Shown here: positions 12,792-21,254 of the stretch, in pieces | How positions within the stretch are numbered: the first letter of the stretch is position 1 | Layout of the letters: every line of letters starts with the position of its first letter | Assembly: GCA_021779375.1 (NCBI GenBank) | Contig: JAJYAT010000003.1 | Coordinates: 1-64,000 of the forward strand | Direction: 5' to 3' | Source: a bacterium | Lineage (GTDB): Bacteria; Patescibacteriota; Gracilibacteria; JAHISY01 | Length of the DNA stretch: 64,000 bases | Made by a program: the position numbers and the translations under genes | Notes under the pieces: generated by a model | The model's input: the letters and a program-made list of their open reading frames with translations, nothing else | What the model was told of the DNA's origin: nothing | The model's database searches: none

Positions 12792-13172
12792 CTATTTTCC
12801 TCTACTCATCAATTCGGCGACTTTCTCGACCGTCTCGAAAGGCGTGTGCTCGGACTTCTTCAAATACATGTCAGCGCCCATATCGAGCGCTTTTTTGGCA
12901 TCTTGTTCTTGTTCGAGATTCGAGCTGATGACGACCTTGGTCGGGAGTGAAGTGTTGTTTTTGAGTGCGCTCAAAACTTCGTAGCCGTTCATTTGCGGCA
13001 TCATGATGTCGAGCAAAATCACATCCGGACGCCACTGCGCGGCGCGTGTGATGCCGTCCATGCCATTCGGGCTGATTTCGGCTTCGTAACCTTTTGCATC
13101 GAAGGCTGTCTTGAACATCTCGCTCAAATCAGCATTGTCTTCAATGATTAAAACCTTAATTTTGCTGTCCAT
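12792..13172 (-). CDS. Stand-alone response regulator receiver
   Basis: REC fold: KVLIIEDNADLSEMF...DVILLDIMMPQMNGYEVL. Confidence 0.93.
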   Translation of the reverse strand: MDSKIKVLIIEDNADLSEMFKTAFDAKGYEAEISPNGMDGITRAAQWRPDVILLDIMMPQMNGYEVLSALKNNTSLPTKVVISSNLEQEQDAKKALDMGADMYLKKSEHTPFETVEKVAELMSRGK

Positions 13173-15195
13173 TTTGTCGGGGGATTAAAAGTTTAAATGT
13201 AGAACCGCGCTTAAGTGCGCTTTTTACAGTGATTTCTCCGCTTAAATTCTCTACGAGTTTTTTAACGATTGCAAGCCCGAGACCACTGCTCTCATCACCC
13301 TTTTCGAGGATATTAACTGATTGTGAAAATTTATCCCAAATTTGGTCGATTTTCTCCGGGGCGATGCCGATGCCTGTGTCCGTGATTTCAACTTCCAAAA
13401 ACTCGCCGCGATCGTGTGCGCTTAGTTTGACACTGCCCGTGTCCGTAAATTTGTGGGCGTTGCCGAGCAGACGTTCGATCACCTCGGTCAATTTTTCCGC
13501 GTCGGTGTCGAGTTTAGTTTCCGCGTCAGGTGCGAAATCGAATTCGAAAGTTAGACCTTTCTGCTCGCAGGTTTTTTGCCATTTCTCCGCCAATTTTGTC
13601 AGCAGGTCACGCGCATTAATTGGTGCAAATTTAAATTTGATTTGACCGCTTTCGATTTTCGTAATTTCCAGAATGTCGGTCAGGATTCGAAGTAACCAGT
13701 CGGTGTTTCTAGCGATGCGCTGCGTGAAGTCTTTTTGTTGTGCGCTCAGTTCGCCGAAGTTCGGCGCGATCAACATCTCGGCGTAGCCGCGGATTGCGGT
13801 GGCGGGAGTACGCAATTCGTGCGAAACATTGGCGATGAAAGCATCTTTGGCATCGTCGAGTGTTTTTAATTTTTCATAATCATCCTGTAGCTTCTTGGCC
13901 TGTTGTCGCAATTTTTCAGTGTATAAAATCGCGACGAGTGAGAGTGCGATGTAATGCACGCCGCCTTCAAGGAATTTCAATTCCTCTGCGATGTAGATAT
14001 CGTCGTCGGCGTGGCGAATCACGAAAAACCCGATTAACTCATTCGTATTCTGGAAAAGCGGGAAGCAAACGTCTCCCAAACCTTGCAGCTCTGCGAGATA
14101 TGAGCAAATGACGTGCTTGTTGTGGGCTAGATATTCTTCTTCACTGGTTACGAGGTAGTGCGTTGTTTTTGCGAAATATTTTTCAAGCTCAGGGTATTGC
14201 GATTTGCCACCTTCTAAATCCAGGACGACTACACGTGCCTCTTTGACGCCAATTCGTTCGGAAAAATTTTGGCGAATATTTCTTTCGAGATCTTGAACCG
14301 AGCCGTAAAAAATGTTTTGATTTTTGAAATCTTCAACGACGCGCTGAAAGTTATTCAGGCTCAGCGTCGTGAACCAATTTTGTTTTTCAAAAAGCTTAAT
14401 CGCAAGGGTGTAAATCAAAATTGCCGAAATAACCGTGGCGATGTGGGTGGTGGTCGCGCTGTGACCTATGTCAAAAATGGTCGTGCCGATTGAAATGGTT
14501 AGCGTGGCGATTAGCGTGATTAGGAGCGCAATCGCACGTTTCAAAATTTTCGGTGCGATGATTTTCAGCTTCAAAAATTTCCACTGAACAAAAAAATAGA
14601 AAACAACAAAGAGGTGCAGACCGATCAAGACATGCGGCGAGAACGCGATATTTTCAGTGAGCGAATCTGTGGGATTCCAAAAGTAGGCTAGGCCGCTGGC
14701 TGCAATTACGAGTGCAGCTATGAACTCAAGCAAAGCGAACTTAAGCTGGTATTTTTTCGCGCCTGTGAAGAGGCTCGTCAATTTCGCTAGTAGAAAAATT
14801 GGGAGCGCGAGTGTTGTCAAAAATCCTGCAAACCAAATTTCGTTGATAGCGGGAATTGGGGAAAAGCCAAGCTCGTTAGTCGCAAGGAGTGACAATAAAA
14901 TTAAATTTGCCACGTAAGTTACTACTAAAATTATTTTGTGGCTGCGCCCGCCAATCAAATTAAGCGTGAAGTGCAAGTTGGTTGCGGCAAACAGTGTAGC
15001 AGCGCTGAGCGCCGCGAGCTCAACTAATTCTCTTGTGAGTGGTAAGAATTGTGTTCCCGTCCAAAGTGCTAATGCGAATGCCGCGAAGGTAAACGTGCGG
15101 TTGACGCGATTGAACGGAAATTTCCAAATCGAAAAACTTCCAAGCGCGGCGGCGAGTGCTCCATTGGCAACGTTAAGAATTTCAAATGCGTGCAT
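13156..15195 (-). CDS. Sensor histidine kinase, N-terminal multi-TM + GAF-like + HisKA/HATPase
   Basis: VSHELRTPATAIRGYAEM H-box, HATPase motifs, multi-TM N-terminus. Confidence 0.93.
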   Translation of the reverse strand: MHAFEILNVANGALAAALGSFSIWKFPFNRVNRTFTFAAFALALWTGTQFLPLTRELVELAALSAATLFAATNLHFTLNLIGGRSHKIILVVTYVANLILLSLLATNELGFSPIPAINEIWFAGFLTTLALPIFLLAKLTSLFTGAKKYQLKFALLEFIAALVIAASGLAYFWNPTDSLTENIAFSPHVLIGLHLFVVFYFFVQWKFLKLKIIAPKILKRAIALLITLIATLTISIGTTIFDIGHSATTTHIATVISAILIYTLAIKLFEKQNWFTTLSLNNFQRVVEDFKNQNIFYGSVQDLERNIRQNFSERIGVKEARVVVLDLEGGKSQYPELEKYFAKTTHYLVTSEEEYLAHNKHVICSYLAELQGLGDVCFPLFQNTNELIGFFVIRHADDDIYIAEELKFLEGGVHYIALSLVAILYTEKLRQQAKKLQDDYEKLKTLDDAKDAFIANVSHELRTPATAIRGYAEMLIAPNFGELSAQQKDFTQRIARNTDWLLRILTDILEITKIESGQIKFKFAPINARDLLTKLAEKWQKTCEQKGLTFEFDFAPDAETKLDTDAEKLTEVIERLLGNAHKFTDTGSVKLSAHDRGEFLEVEITDTGIGIAPEKIDQIWDKFSQSVNILEKGDESSGLGLAIVKKLVENLSGEITVKSALKRGSTFKLLIPRQNGQQN

Positions 15196-17268
15196 TTATT
15201 TTTTTGATTCGAAAGGTAGAGTGAAGGTGAATTGTGAGCCGTGTTCGAGTTCGCTCTCGACCCAAATTTTTCCGCCGAGCTGCTCAACAATTTTCTTTAC
15301 GATTGGCAGGCCGAGACCGGTTCCGCCTTTTTGCTTTGGATTGCGAGATTGTCTGAACTCTTGAAAAATCATGCCAAAATCTCGCTTGGCTATGCCGATG
15401 CCAGTGTCTGAGACCACGAAGCGCAAAAATTCCGGCGTTTTGTCGAGGCTGACAGTGAGCGTAATGTGCCCCTTTTCATCTGTAAATTTAAATGCGTTCA
15501 TTAGTAAATTCATAAAAACGCGTTTTAGCTTTTCGCCATCGGTGATTATTTTTTGTGGTAGATTTTTGGCGCAGACCAATTTAATCTCGATTGATTTTTC
15601 AGCGCATTTTATTTCGAAATCTTCTACGGTTTCGCGGGCAATCTTCTGCCAGTCAGTTGGCTCAAGTTTAAACTCCATTAGGCCAGCCTCGAGTTTGCTG
15701 AAATCAAGAATCGAATTTACCAGCTCCAGCATGTTGCCAGTTGCGCTGTCGATTCTTCCTAAAAATTCTTTCTGTTTATCGTTTAATTTTCCGAATGATT
15801 CGGAGAGTAAAAAATCGTCATAACCTTTGATGATGGTGAGCGGGGTACGCAGATCGTGTGAAGTCATCGAAAAAAAGCGGTCTTTTTCAATATCAGCTTT
15901 TTGCAGTCTTTGATAGGAGCCTTGTAGTTGCTCAGTTTTCTCTTCGACTTTCGTGCGGAGGTCGGAATTGTAATTCAAAATTTTGAGTGAAAGCGAAATA
16001 TAGGTTGCGGCAGCGCGTAGAATTCGCAATTCGCCCTGAGTGTATTGGCTGTGGCGTGGTTTTTCGCCCAGAAAGAAAAAGCCGACGACCTGACCTTGCT
16101 CGCCATGAAGCGGTAAACAAAGCGTGCCCATTGCTAGGATTTTGTCGAAGTCGCCTTCTTTTTCTGGAAAAAATTCAGCGAGTAAAAGTTGTTCAGCCTT
16201 GGTCTCTTGGAAGTATTCGGTGAGCGGTGCGAGTACCGACTTGTTATTTTTTTCTAAAAGCACAATTGTGGCTGATTCCATTTTTAATCTTTTGATAAAA
16301 ATTTTGCGCACTGAATTTTTGAGCTCAGCGAGATTGGAATAAAAAAGCTTGCGCTCATAAAAATTATTTACGGCTCTATTAAAGTCATTGATGTGGGGGA
16401 TACCGATTAAGTGGTAAAAAGTTTGCGAGCTAAAAAATTTCGAAAGAGCAAGATAAGTTGTTAGTGAAATAATTGGAAAGAGCGCCAGAACGGGCAATTC
16501 CTCTTTGCGGAAAAAAACGACATAAGAAATTCCAAAACCAAGACTGGTTGAGACGACGAGAGCGAAGACCTTTTGGGCGATACCAAAGATACTTAATTGC
16601 AAATCAAGATGACGAAAACGCAAAATCGTATAGGCAAAGGCGCCAATCTGACCGGCAATCAAAACATTAAAATAAATCGGTACGGCGAGACCGTAGGCTG
16701 GCAAAAAATTCATTACGAGCGCGGCGAAGATTACGACTTCACCAAGGTAGATATATTTGATTTGTTGTTTTTTTAGGCCTGTGCTCTTTTTGTAAAAAAT
16801 ATTTAGCAGGAGAAAAGCACCCGCAAAATAGGCGAGCCAAATTGCAATCCAAACGTGATACAAAAATCCTGGTACGAGCCAAAGCGCGAAATCTGTATTT
16901 TTTGCGACCCCGGAGATAAAAAACTCCGTGCCGATGAGCGGAAGTAATAGGATCGAAATGGCATAACCCGCGCGAATCCAAAGCTTTTCCTTTTCAGTAA
17001 TACCGAGAATAGCGTTTACAAAATGGAAATTGGCAATCGCGAGGAAGAAAGCGCCGACGTGCAAGATTCGGAAAGAGAGTAGGGTAAGTTCGGAATTGTT
17101 TTCGACGATTGGCCAAAAGCTGCCAAATGCCCAAAAGGCGAGCGCAGAGCAAAAAACCGCAAAAGTTTGGTGAATTAAATCCTGTCTCTTGCGCCAGTAG
17201 ACTGCTGTGCCCGCGATTAGCGCGGTGCTGCCAATCAGGAGCGCCGAAACAAAGAGAAAGATATTCAT
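15196..17268 (-). CDS. Sensor histidine kinase, paralogous architecture
   Basis: MTSHDLRTPLTIIKGYDDF H-box, GGTGLGLPIVKKIVEQLGG. Confidence 0.93.
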   Translation of the reverse strand: MNIFLFVSALLIGSTALIAGTAVYWRKRQDLIHQTFAVFCSALAFWAFGSFWPIVENNSELTLLSFRILHVGAFFLAIANFHFVNAILGITEKEKLWIRAGYAISILLLPLIGTEFFISGVAKNTDFALWLVPGFLYHVWIAIWLAYFAGAFLLLNIFYKKSTGLKKQQIKYIYLGEVVIFAALVMNFLPAYGLAVPIYFNVLIAGQIGAFAYTILRFRHLDLQLSIFGIAQKVFALVVSTSLGFGISYVVFFRKEELPVLALFPIISLTTYLALSKFFSSQTFYHLIGIPHINDFNRAVNNFYERKLFYSNLAELKNSVRKIFIKRLKMESATIVLLEKNNKSVLAPLTEYFQETKAEQLLLAEFFPEKEGDFDKILAMGTLCLPLHGEQGQVVGFFFLGEKPRHSQYTQGELRILRAAATYISLSLKILNYNSDLRTKVEEKTEQLQGSYQRLQKADIEKDRFFSMTSHDLRTPLTIIKGYDDFLLSESFGKLNDKQKEFLGRIDSATGNMLELVNSILDFSKLEAGLMEFKLEPTDWQKIARETVEDFEIKCAEKSIEIKLVCAKNLPQKIITDGEKLKRVFMNLLMNAFKFTDEKGHITLTVSLDKTPEFLRFVVSDTGIGIAKRDFGMIFQEFRQSRNPKQKGGTGLGLPIVKKIVEQLGGKIWVESELEHGSQFTFTLPFESKK

Positions 17269-17413: not shown

Positions 17414-19780
17414 ATGTTTAAAAACAATTGGCTGAGAATGATTCTGATTCTCACCGTGGTTGGGCTGCTCGCATTGATCGATTTGCCGCCGGCGCAAAAA
17501 ACCTTTTTCACCAAAGTGCCGTTTGTCGGTGCGGAGCTCGCTGATTCGAAAGTCAATCTCGGACTCGATCTCCAGGGCGGTGCGCACTTGGATTACCGCG
17601 TCGTCACGACGGGTATTCCGATTGCCGATGTGCCGAAAATTGTCGCGGGCGTGAAGTCGGTGATTGAGCGTCGCGTGAACGGACTCGGAGTTTCCGAACC
17701 CAATATCTTCACTTCGCGCGTGGGTGATGAGGAGCACATCGTCGTCGAGCTCGCTGGTATCCGCGACATCGAGGCGGCGAAAGCCATTGTCGGCAAGACC
17801 ATTCAGCTAGAATTCAAAGAGCAAAACACCACTGTCGATCCGAACGTTGCGACTGAGATGAAAACCAAGGCTGAGGATTTCCTCGCGCGTGCGCTCGCTG
17901 ATCCAGCTAATTTCGACAAAATTTTCGACGATTTCAAAAACAACTCGACAATCACTCTTACCAAAGACGAACCCACAAAGGCTGCTGATGGAACTACTAC
18001 CGAGGGTTGGGAATGGGCGAAAGATTTGACGGATTCATTCAAGCCGGTTGCGGCGCTGACGCCCGGGGCAGTTTATCCCCAGCTAATTGAGCCGAATGGT
18101 GAGTATTACATGGATGCCGATGGTTCACTGAAACAAAGCCAGGGTTTTTATGTCGCTCAGCTACTCGCCAAAGAAGACAATGTGGAGCGCGTCGAGAAGA
18201 CAGCGGAAGAGCGTTCGGCAAGTCACGTCTTGATTTCATACGTGGGCGCGCAATCCGCAGCACAAACGACTACGCGCACAAAAGCTGAGGCTGAGGAGCT
18301 CGCGCAGCAAGTGCTCGCTCAGGCGACAGCGAAAGACGCTGATTTCGCAGCGTTGGCGAAAAAATATTCCGACGATCCGTCCGCTGCCAAGAATTCCGGC
18401 GAGTTGGGATTTTTCACTCCGGACAAAATGGTACCGGAATTTGCCAAGCCAGTTTTTGCCGCGACGCAATTTGGCGTGTTGCCGCAAGTGGTCGAATCAC
18501 CATTCGGTTTCCACATCATCAAATATGAGGACAAGAAAGATGCGACTTCGACGACGACGCAGGAAACGCGTGTGAAATTAGCACGTGCTTTTTTCTCGAC
18601 GAAACCAGATAGTTGGAAGCCGACCGGACTCACAGGTCAGCATTTCCGTCGCGCGGATGTCGGCAGCGATCCGACGAGTTTCCGCCCAATCGTAAACATT
18701 TACTTCACTCAATCCGCAGTCGCCTCGAAGAGCGTGAACTGGTGGGTACTCGTGTGGTATCTGCTCGCGATTGTTGGCGGCATCACACTTTTCTCTTCAC
18801 TCATCGGAATTTTCATGTCGGCGGGACGTACTCAAAATTTACGGCGCGATAAAATTATCGGCGTCGCGGCAGCACTTTTACTCGCGGCGGCGATTTACGG
18901 CATCGTCCAAAATTCCGCGACCAAAGAGGTCGCTGCTCCGGCAGACAAAGATGCGGCTGTCTCCGAAACTGATTCGGCGGGTGTCGATCTTTTCGCGGCG
19001 ATCACGAAACGTAACCTCGGCAAGCCGATTGCGATTTTCCTCGACGGTCTGCCAATCATCGACACCAATGGCGATGGCGTGATTAACTCCGCAGATCCGG
19101 CGTACGCGCCGACCGTCCAGTCCGAAATTTTAAATGGTCAGGCGGTGATTTCAGGACTTACGAGCTATGAAGAAGCGAATCAGCTCGCGCAAAATCTCAA
19201 CACCGGTGCAATTCCAGCTCCTGTGAAGTTGTCCGGTGAATATACCGTCGGCGCCTCGCTGGGTATCGAGGCGTTGCAAAAGTCGCTCATGGCGGGTGTG
19301 ATTGGGCTTATCGCTGTTTCGCTTTTCGTCATTCTTTTTTACCGCTTGCCCGGTGTCGTCGCTTCGCTTGCGCTCGTGATTTATGCTGTCATCCTCATTT
19401 TCGTTTTTCAAATGCTCGGTATTGTACTCACACTGGCCGGTGTAGCGGGCGTGATTCTCTCAATCGGTATGGCAGTCGACGCCAACATCCTCATCTTCGA
19501 ACGTATGAAGGAGGAAATGGCGCTCGGTAAAAGTCTCGCGCGGGCGCTCGAGGATGGTTTCGATCGTGCGTGGACTTCGATTCGCGACTCGAATGTCTCG
19601 AGTCTCATTACTTGCGTGATTCTGTGGGGCTTCGGTGATTCTGTGATCAAAGGCTTCGGACTCACGCTCGGTATCGGCATTCTTATTTCGATGTTCTCCG
19701 CGATTACCGTTTCGCGTAATTTCCTGCGCGTACTCGTCAGCTTCATCAAAAATCCAAGGATTTACGGCGCTAAAAAATAA
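17414..19780 (+). CDS. secD: SecD with inserted parvulin (PpiC) domain and additional TM pair
   Basis: SecD cores (KVNLGLDLQGGAHLDYRV, AITKRNLGKPIAIFLDG, GMAVDANILIFERMKEE) with insert SASHVLISY...FAALAKKYSDDPSAAKNSGELGFF...ESPFGFHIIKYEDKK. Confidence 0.95.
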   Translation: MFKNNWLRMILILTVVGLLALIDLPPAQKTFFTKVPFVGAELADSKVNLGLDLQGGAHLDYRVVTTGIPIADVPKIVAGVKSVIERRVNGLGVSEPNIFTSRVGDEEHIVVELAGIRDIEAAKAIVGKTIQLEFKEQNTTVDPNVATEMKTKAEDFLARALADPANFDKIFDDFKNNSTITLTKDEPTKAADGTTTEGWEWAKDLTDSFKPVAALTPGAVYPQLIEPNGEYYMDADGSLKQSQGFYVAQLLAKEDNVERVEKTAEERSASHVLISYVGAQSAAQTTTRTKAEAEELAQQVLAQATAKDADFAALAKKYSDDPSAAKNSGELGFFTPDKMVPEFAKPVFAATQFGVLPQVVESPFGFHIIKYEDKKDATSTTTQETRVKLARAFFSTKPDSWKPTGLTGQHFRRADVGSDPTSFRPIVNIYFTQSAVASKSVNWWVLVWYLLAIVGGITLFSSLIGIFMSAGRTQNLRRDKIIGVAAALLLAAAIYGIVQNSATKEVAAPADKDAAVSETDSAGVDLFAAITKRNLGKPIAIFLDGLPIIDTNGDGVINSADPAYAPTVQSEILNGQAVISGLTSYEEANQLAQNLNTGAIPAPVKLSGEYTVGASLGIEALQKSLMAGVIGLIAVSLFVILFYRLPGVVASLALVIYAVILIFVFQMLGIVLTLAGVAGVILSIGMAVDANILIFERMKEEMALGKSLARALEDGFDRAWTSIRDSNVSSLITCVILWGFGDSVIKGFGLTLGIGILISMFSAITVSRNFLRVLVSFIKNPRIYGAKK

Positions 19781-19795
19781 TTTAATTTCACTAAA

Positions 19796-20842
19796 ATGAT
19801 TGCTTTCATTCGTCGTTCCAAAATTTGGTTTACGATCTCCGGCGTTGCGTTCGTGCTTTCAATCGTCGCGTTTATCATTTTTGGTTTCAACTTCGGCATC
19901 GATTTCACGGGCGGCAGCTCGCTCGAATTAAAATTCGAACAAACCGTCGACGTTCAGCAAGTCACCGCAGCGCTAAATGCTTCGCAACTCAAGCTCGGCG
20001 AATCAGTGGTCACACCAGCCGATTCCGGTTCCTTTCTAGTGCGCGTGCGTTACCTCGAGGAAAATGAGCGCACTCAGTTGGAAAGCGAGCTCGGCAAAAG
20101 CTTGGGTAGTTTCGAGACACTGAGCTTCACGACGACGGGTGCGACCCTCGGTCAGAGCATGCGCGAACGGGCGGTGCGCGCGATTGTCTACGCTTCGATT
20201 GCGATTGTGCTTTATCTCGCAGCTGTTTTCCGCAATACGCGCCGGGATTCACTTACGAAATACATTACAGTCGGCTCGACGATTGCGCTTGCGACGATTG
20301 TCGCCGAGACGATGGTCGAGGATGATTTGACGCGCTGGATTGTCTTTCTCGGGATTCTAGCGATTTTCGCCATTTTTCTAGTTTTGGAAATTCGCAAGAA
20401 ATCTCTGAGTTTGAAATACGGCGTGTGCGCAGTCATCGCGCTCATTCACGATATCGTGATTACGCTCGGCGTACTCTCGGTGCTCGGCCATTTCATGGGC
20501 GTCGAAATCAATTCACTCATCATCACGGCGCTGCTCACGATCCTCGGCTTCTCTGTCCATGACACGATCGTGGTTTTCGATCGCTTGCGCGAAAATCGCA
20601 AATTTCAAACGGCGCACGAAACACTTGCCACTGTCGCTGACAAATCCCTAAATCAAACGCTCGCGCGCTCGATCAATACTTCGCTCTCGACGCTCATCGT
20701 ACTTACGATTCTTTTCTTCATGGGCGCGGACTCGATCAAGTGGTTTGTCTTCACGCTAATCTGTGGCATCTTCGTCGGGACTTACTCTTCGATTTTCAAC
20801 GCGACACCGTTGCTCGTCTATTGGGAAAGCCGGAAGAATTAG
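19796..20842 (+). CDS. secF: SecF with apparent extra TM segments between TM2 and TM3
   Basis: FGIDFTGGSSLELKF, ALIHDIVITLGVLSVLG, GFSVHDTIVVFDRLREN. Confidence 0.95.
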   Translation: MIAFIRRSKIWFTISGVAFVLSIVAFIIFGFNFGIDFTGGSSLELKFEQTVDVQQVTAALNASQLKLGESVVTPADSGSFLVRVRYLEENERTQLESELGKSLGSFETLSFTTTGATLGQSMRERAVRAIVYASIAIVLYLAAVFRNTRRDSLTKYITVGSTIALATIVAETMVEDDLTRWIVFLGILAIFAIFLVLEIRKKSLSLKYGVCAVIALIHDIVITLGVLSVLGHFMGVEINSLIITALLTILGFSVHDTIVVFDRLRENRKFQTAHETLATVADKSLNQTLARSINTSLSTLIVLTILFFMGADSIKWFVFTLICGIFVGTYSSIFNATPLLVYWESRKN

Positions 20843-21072: not shown

Positions 21073-21167
21073 TGGTGGCCGGGGGCGGACCTGCCTGCCG
21101 GCAGGCAGGTTTGAACCACCGACGCAAGGATTTTCAATCCTTCGTCCGCCTCGGCGGACTACCCGAA
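21073..21167 (-). pseudogene. Degenerate tRNA-Phe copy with two palindromic insertions/replacements
   Basis: Same 3' half and anticodon arm as the intact tRNA at 21180-21254; CCTGCCTGCCGGCAGGCAGG at 21090-21109 in the T-loop; TCCGCCTCGGCGGA at 21145-21158 in place of the D-arm. Confidence 0.85.
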
Positions 21168-21179
21168 CATATTTTCTAG

Positions 21180-21254
21180 TGGTGGCCGGGGGCGGATTTG
21201 AACCACCGACGCAAGGATTTTCAATCCTTCGCTCTACCCCTGAGCTACCCGGCC
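21180..21254 (-). tRNA. tRNA-Phe (GAA), CCA encoded
   Basis: GGCCGGGTAGCTCAGGGGTAGAGCGAAGGATTGAAAATCCTTGCGTCGGTGGTTCAAATCCGCCCCCGGCCACCA; all four stems pair. Confidence 0.93.

Follow-up and report, generated by a model that had tools for sequence, protein, structure and literature searches.

The P1 domain of SecD is a mobile arm outside the membrane, and its motion has been implicated in proton-driven translocation (PMC9508474). The site at which SurA binds the holo-translocon is near SecDF, and its parvulin domains are placed on the P1 head of SecDF by AlphaFold modelling (PMC9987972). A second parvulin protein, PpiD, has been found to contact the periplasmic domain of SecD; the importance of the PpiD parvulin domain has been questioned (PMC9643414). 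Both SurA and PpiD are separate proteins, and only transient association with SecDF has been seen for either. A fusion to SecD fixes the geometry with which the Sec channel passes exported proteins on to folding factors, and makes this hand-over testable within one polypeptide. No published description of a SecD with a parvulin was found in the open-access full texts searched.

The protein is encoded in the window (the whole stretch of DNA analysed, 64,000 nucleotides) by a single open frame of 788 amino acids (aa) beginning with ATG. The features of the locus are as follows.

17414..19780, + strand: SecD with embedded tandem parvulins, 788 aa (Pfam, TIGR01129)
17426..17482, + strand: N-terminal transmembrane (TM) helix, aa 5-23 (AlphaFold helix, Kyte-Doolittle maximum)
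17543..17824, + strand: N-terminal half of the SecD P1 base, GLDLQGG to LEFKE, aa 44-137 (PF21760 SecD_1st at aa 80-138)
17807..18202, + strand: predicted parvulin-like domain 1, degenerate, aa 132-263 (profile comparison, PF00639 in relatives, full model)
18203..18541, + strand: parvulin domain 2, aa 264-376 (Pfam, Foldseek, catalytic residues intact)
18545..18598, + strand: extra strand after domain 2, aa 378-395 (model; site of the VxAxHILI strand in single-parvulin relatives)
18611..18706, + strand: first part of the P1 head, WKPTGLTGQHF...RPIVNIYF, aa 400-431 (alignment of relatives)
18740..18913, + strand: extra TM hairpin within the P1 head, aa 443-500 (hydropathy, AlphaFold, relatives)
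18965..19234, + strand: second part of the P1 head, aa 518-607 (PF22599 at aa 519-602)
19061..19096, + strand: DTNGDGVINSAD loop, aa 550-561, calcium-loop-like but unproven (kept in family members; profiles below cut-off)
19238..19744, + strand: C-terminal SecD membrane region, aa 609-777, with D689 in GMAVDANILIFER (PF02355 SecD_SecF_C at aa 609-774)
19796..20842, + strand: secF, the partner gene, 15 bases downstream of secD (TIGR00966, 264.7 bits, cut-off 160)

The curated profile TIGR01129 identifies the frame as SecD with 320.5 bits (cut-off 244.4), and the base (PF21760), P1 head (PF22599) and membrane domain (PF02355) follow in SecD order, each above its cut-off. The GLDLQGG sequence of the Sec_GG motif is present, with PF07549 scoring 18.3 bits against a cut-off of 20.3. 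Apart from this score, slightly short of its cut-off, each feature tested marks the protein as a SecD. The transmembrane aspartate D689 was invariant in all 44 SecD sequences compared, and because this conserved membrane residue is kept a motor function is plausible. When matched to sequences in the PDB, the flanks of the protein found SecDF and the middle found SurA and PrsA. A whole-protein AlphaFold model built with 44 sequences (mean pLDDT 81.8, pTM 0.56) had SecDF structures as its best structural match in Foldseek. A search with the window SecD revealed only one SecD locus in the 1.07 Mb genome (98.33% complete), and a genome-wide profile search matched PF00639 once, within that same frame; the sole detected SecD and the sole detected parvulin of this genome are thus one protein. 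The genome encodes one cyclophilin, on a different contig, and no FKBP was detected.

Several observations were made on the surroundings of the gene. The SecF of the window (19796-20842) has an insert of about 51 aa at aa 147-206, which contains a strongly hydrophobic segment and a weakly hydrophobic one, and the SecF of locus L033 is without this insert. Two adjacent histidine kinases with long membrane N-termini (13156-15195 and 15196-17268, both on the minus strand) are divergent from secD, the second of them matching HisKA_7TM. The tRNA-Phe gene (21180-21254) is partly copied, over 41 bases at 95% identity, at 21104-21144, a distance of 87 bases, and the copy looks like a remnant of duplication or integration.

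The earlier note had placed a parvulin (PpiC) block inside SecD at about 18215-18540, and this block lies in the same frame as the SecD profile match. PF13616 (Rotamase_3) matches aa 261-375 with an E-value of 1.9e-29 (103 bits, cut-off 22.5) and PF00639 matches aa 271-373 with 5.4e-24 (85.4 bits, cut-off 21.7); together with the PDB matches this is overwhelming evidence for a PpiC domain at the boundary between the P1 base and the P1 head. The predicted fold aligns in Foldseek with Pin1, the P2 domain of SurA and PrsA at a target-normalised TM score of 0.83-0.89 and an rmsd of about 2 Å over 112-117 columns, with the elements in normal order. The active-site set H271, D321, L331, M339, F343 and H367 is present, and we take these residues to be the counterparts of the Pin1/PrsA set. 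Profile, predicted fold and residues thus all identify domain 2 as a parvulin. Both histidines are retained in nearly all relatives compared, and the acidic residue and the M/F positions are largely retained across deep divergence. The first histidine is changed in L114 and both are changed in L115, L116, L146, L148 and L155, so isomerase activity would not be universally kept.

To describe the protein as SecD with an inserted parvulin, as the earlier note did, was correct as to the presence of a parvulin but too modest: the protein has two parvulin-like domains, and such fusions occur widely in the phylum. The degenerate domain upstream had been missed. When a profile of domain 1 made from 20 sequences, including the window and excluding the Falkowbacteria sequence L033, was compared with that of domain 2, the probability of relationship was 97% (E 8e-11 for the single comparison). 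A domain 1 profile from the family of the window alone gave only 65%, and the evidence therefore comes from the wider sequence set. In L033 the first domain matches a parvulin profile directly (E 1e-12), and PF00639 exceeds its cut-off on the first domain in G326, G038, G029, G351, G268 and other genomes of the class to which the window belongs. The unrelated insert that SAR202 SecDs carry at this junction served as the negative control for the comparison and gave a probability of 0.1%. In the whole-protein AlphaFold model the order of elements in domain 1 is parvulin-like (strand 132-137, helices 143-162 and 164-175, strand 180-184, helix 207-214, strands 239-241 and 244-263); folded in isolation with six sequences, the domain reached a pLDDT of 46 and no confident fold. 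The profile comparison, the matches in relatives and the full model all point to aa 132-263 as a second, degenerate parvulin. The active-site histidine is absent from domain 1 of the window, and almost all carriers lack the second histidine in their first domain, L180 being the exception. In SurA, the P1 parvulin domain is inactive and the P2 domain is active. An inactive and an active parvulin would so stand in tandem here too, in a SurA-like arrangement.

The order of parts seen in the window recurs in L003 (76% identity over aa 1-788) and L004 (65% over aa 2-786), and the fusion architecture is also found in L032 (Peribacteraceae). The class of the window was sampled with 77 genomes, each at least 95% complete, which were searched with PF00639. 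This profile was present in 46 genomes, in 45 of which a parvulin lies in a frame of 692-1114 aa; at every such locus read the long frame is a SecD, in some cases fused to SecF. Parvulins occur nowhere outside the long SecD-type frame in 42 of the 46, and separate parvulins were seen in G017, G048, G222 and G335 only. Because the remaining 31 of the 77 genomes, including every sampled member of the families f10, f14 and f165, gave no PF00639 match, the module is dispensable in some lineages. In f10 and f14 the SecD frame is uninterrupted only if TGA is translated as an amino acid.

A profile consisting of the parvulin and the GLTG strand that follows it (A1) was run on 380 Patescibacteria genomes. 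In other classes at least 20 genomes gave matches spanning A1, in frames of about 680-740 aa, most of which contained two parvulin domains when read, and at least about 12 had single-parvulin frames of about 560-660 aa; the fusion is thus found in at least 32 more genomes of further Patescibacteria classes. Several of these tandem carriers also have separate parvulin frames of PrsA size (about 330-380 aa), which shows that the fusion did not replace them everywhere. Among the matches listed for 251 Chloroflexota genomes none spans both the parvulin and the SecD strand. No A1 match spans both parts in 399 Pseudomonadota or 399 Bacillota genomes at an E-value of 1e-34, a limit that would miss single-parvulin fusions; two Pseudomonadota matches stop short of the SecD strand. 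In the SAR202/Chloroflexota SecDs L087, L091 and L093 the same base/head junction holds a long insert with no Pfam or parvulin match.

The single-parvulin SecDs (L170-L177 and L189) differ in their strand order. The core, from the helices to GYHII, comes directly after LEFKE, and the VxAxHILI strand, usually the first strand of a parvulin, is placed after the core. The pattern H[IVL][LI][IVFL] was found between LEF and the GLTG strand in nine of 11 single-parvulin SecDs and in none of 55 SecDs without an insert. These proteins carry an apparent circular permutation of the enzyme, a natural one in which both catalytic histidines are kept in most members despite the different strand order.

Taken together, the fold, the recurrence of the architecture and its placement make a translocon-fused foldase acting on emerging substrates, as the earlier note had proposed, the best reading. 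We infer a working SecD that has a tandem foldase in its proton-driven P1 arm, and give a probability of about 0.72 to this reading with its presumed activity, chain contact and coupling to motion. The tandem module would be built into the arm at the junction of the base and the mobile head. Domain 1, having lost its active-site histidine, is probably a spacer or a substrate-binding chaperone, and domain 2 probably isomerises prolyl bonds in chains leaving SecYEG. Movement of the P1 arm accompanies the flow of protons through SecD/SecF, so the motor would carry the foldase to and from the emerging chain, and exported proteins may meet a folding catalyst on the export machine itself. The foldase reading is strengthened by the position at the base/head junction in conjunction with the reported contacts of SurA with SecDF (PMC9987972) and of PpiD with SecD (PMC9643414).

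The main rival, which we consider unlikely though deserving of attention, is a non-catalytic role for the parvulin pair, as a holding chaperone or as a docking platform for emerging chains or partners, isomerase activity being incidental. The degeneration of domain 1 in nearly all carriers, the loss of both domain 2 histidines in some members and the doubt raised over the PpiD parvulin domain (PMC9643414) are all in agreement with this. However, the residues of the domain 2 active site have largely persisted over deep divergence, and the histidines are kept again in most single-parvulin SecDs where the strands are differently ordered; conservation across both divergence and strand order would be difficult to account for if the active site were not under selection. 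Much less probable is a purely structural role, in which the insert takes no direct part in folding and acts as a spacer to extend the P1 arm, a longer reach being favoured by the geometry of the envelope. The unrelated SAR202 insert shows that the junction tolerates extra mass, but a spacer would need no conserved catalytic residues and domain 2 has them. An assembly chimera or annotation artefact can be rejected as having next to no likelihood, given that the frame is single and open and that the same architecture recurs in independent genomes at 65-76% identity, in L032 and across several classes.

Besides the parvulin pair in its P1 arm, the SecD of the window carries extra parts in the head. 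The two further hydrophobic segments pointed out in the earlier note have best 19-residue Kyte-Doolittle means of 2.27 and 2.26, similar to those of native TM segments, and are modelled by AlphaFold as helices (aa 443-468 and 476-500) with low confidence (pLDDT of about 40-67). Detectable copies of this TM hairpin were limited to the family of the window. Both ends of P1 lie outside the membrane, so an added TM pair keeps the topology as had been suggested, and this fits with the turn and the residues next to it (SAGRTQNLRRDK), which are basic. The P1 head in this family would also be tied to the membrane through the hairpin. In the Peregrinibacteria-type SecDs L047, L052 and L117 a hydrophobic insert lies at a different site, ahead of the ITLTLAG segment of the C-terminal membrane region, and several SecDs of this type are fused to SecF.

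The calcium-loop-like motif, DTNGDGVINSAD, fits the pattern D-x-N-x-D-G-x-I-N-x-x-D and is retained in all four family members read (L001, L003, L004 and L005), and it was found only in the window's own family. The motif falls below the cut-offs of the relevant profiles, and this part of the earlier proposal is weak. Membership of the EF-hand family was rejected by score (EF-hand_5, 13.9 with a cut-off of 25.9), and the dockerin profile likewise scored too low (Dockerin_1, 13.4 with a cut-off of 22.9). The loop may bind a metal, possibly calcium.

The history of the fusion was approached with a SecD tree of 407 columns from which the insert was left out. The class of the window and the TGA group formed one group (SH-aLRT 100), and the other carriers were found mostly together, with many unfused Paceibacteria-type SecDs nearby. 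On the free quick tree the fused state required three changes; a topology that forces all carriers together with the TGA group into a single clade was not rejected (p-AU 0.65), which permits a single origin of the fusion without establishing it. A tree of the parvulin domains, having too few columns, was mostly unresolved. In tandem members a strand similar to VxAxHILI but without the histidine follows domain 2 (aa 378-395 in the window), and duplication of a permuted unit with re-pairing into normal order would be a simple account of this. Three lipobox proteins of about 470-490 aa with parvulin domains and without the SecD TM segments were also seen, in L186 (432-1868, +), L187 (862-2334, -) and L136 (1015-2433, -). 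The L186 protein also scores 35 bits on the profile of the SecD P1 head (cut-off 27), and the L136 genome gave no match to a SecD membrane region. These proteins look like SecD arms turned into free lipoproteins. A fuller history can be put forward only tentatively, as a possibility on which we would not wager evenly: in the SecD of Patescibacteria, a foldase moved by the proton-motive force would have arisen when a permuted parvulin, last strand and then first, was built into the P1 arm, duplication then giving an inactive core and an active core of normal order, and the arm would have escaped in two lineages (L186/L187 and L136) as a PrsA-like lipoprotein.

In comparison with known systems, the SecD of the window shares with SecDF (TIGR01129; T. 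thermophilus 3aqp, and 5xam, 5xan and 5yhf) the P1 base and head, the membrane region with its conserved aspartate and the adjacent secF. Unlike SecDF, it has about 265 aa, comprising two parvulin domains and a strand, at the base/head junction and, in its own family, a TM hairpin and a loop inserted in the head. The NCBIfam models for PrsA, SurA and related proteins gave 40-48 bits with cut-offs of 300-490, and the protein was not assigned to the PrsA, SurA or PpiD families. PrsA is similar in having a catalytic parvulin outside the membrane that acts on exported proteins but is a separate lipoprotein, and full-length PrsA profiles stay far below their cut-offs on the window SecD (48 bits against 360, and similar). 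PpiD resembles the window SecD as a membrane-bound parvulin protein at the translocon with a reported contact to SecD (PMC9643414), but it is not part of SecD and has a single TM anchor of its own. The single-parvulin SecDs of Patescibacteria carry their parvulin at the same place in SecD but have one core, with the HILI strand after instead of before it. SurA resembles the window SecD in its two parvulin domains; it is, however, a separate soluble periplasmic protein, and its N- and C-terminal chaperone parts are absent from the window SecD. By analogy, the fusion would amount to a SurA-SecDF-like complex fixed in one chain at the base/head junction, and the SecD of the window may work like SurA docked on SecDF.
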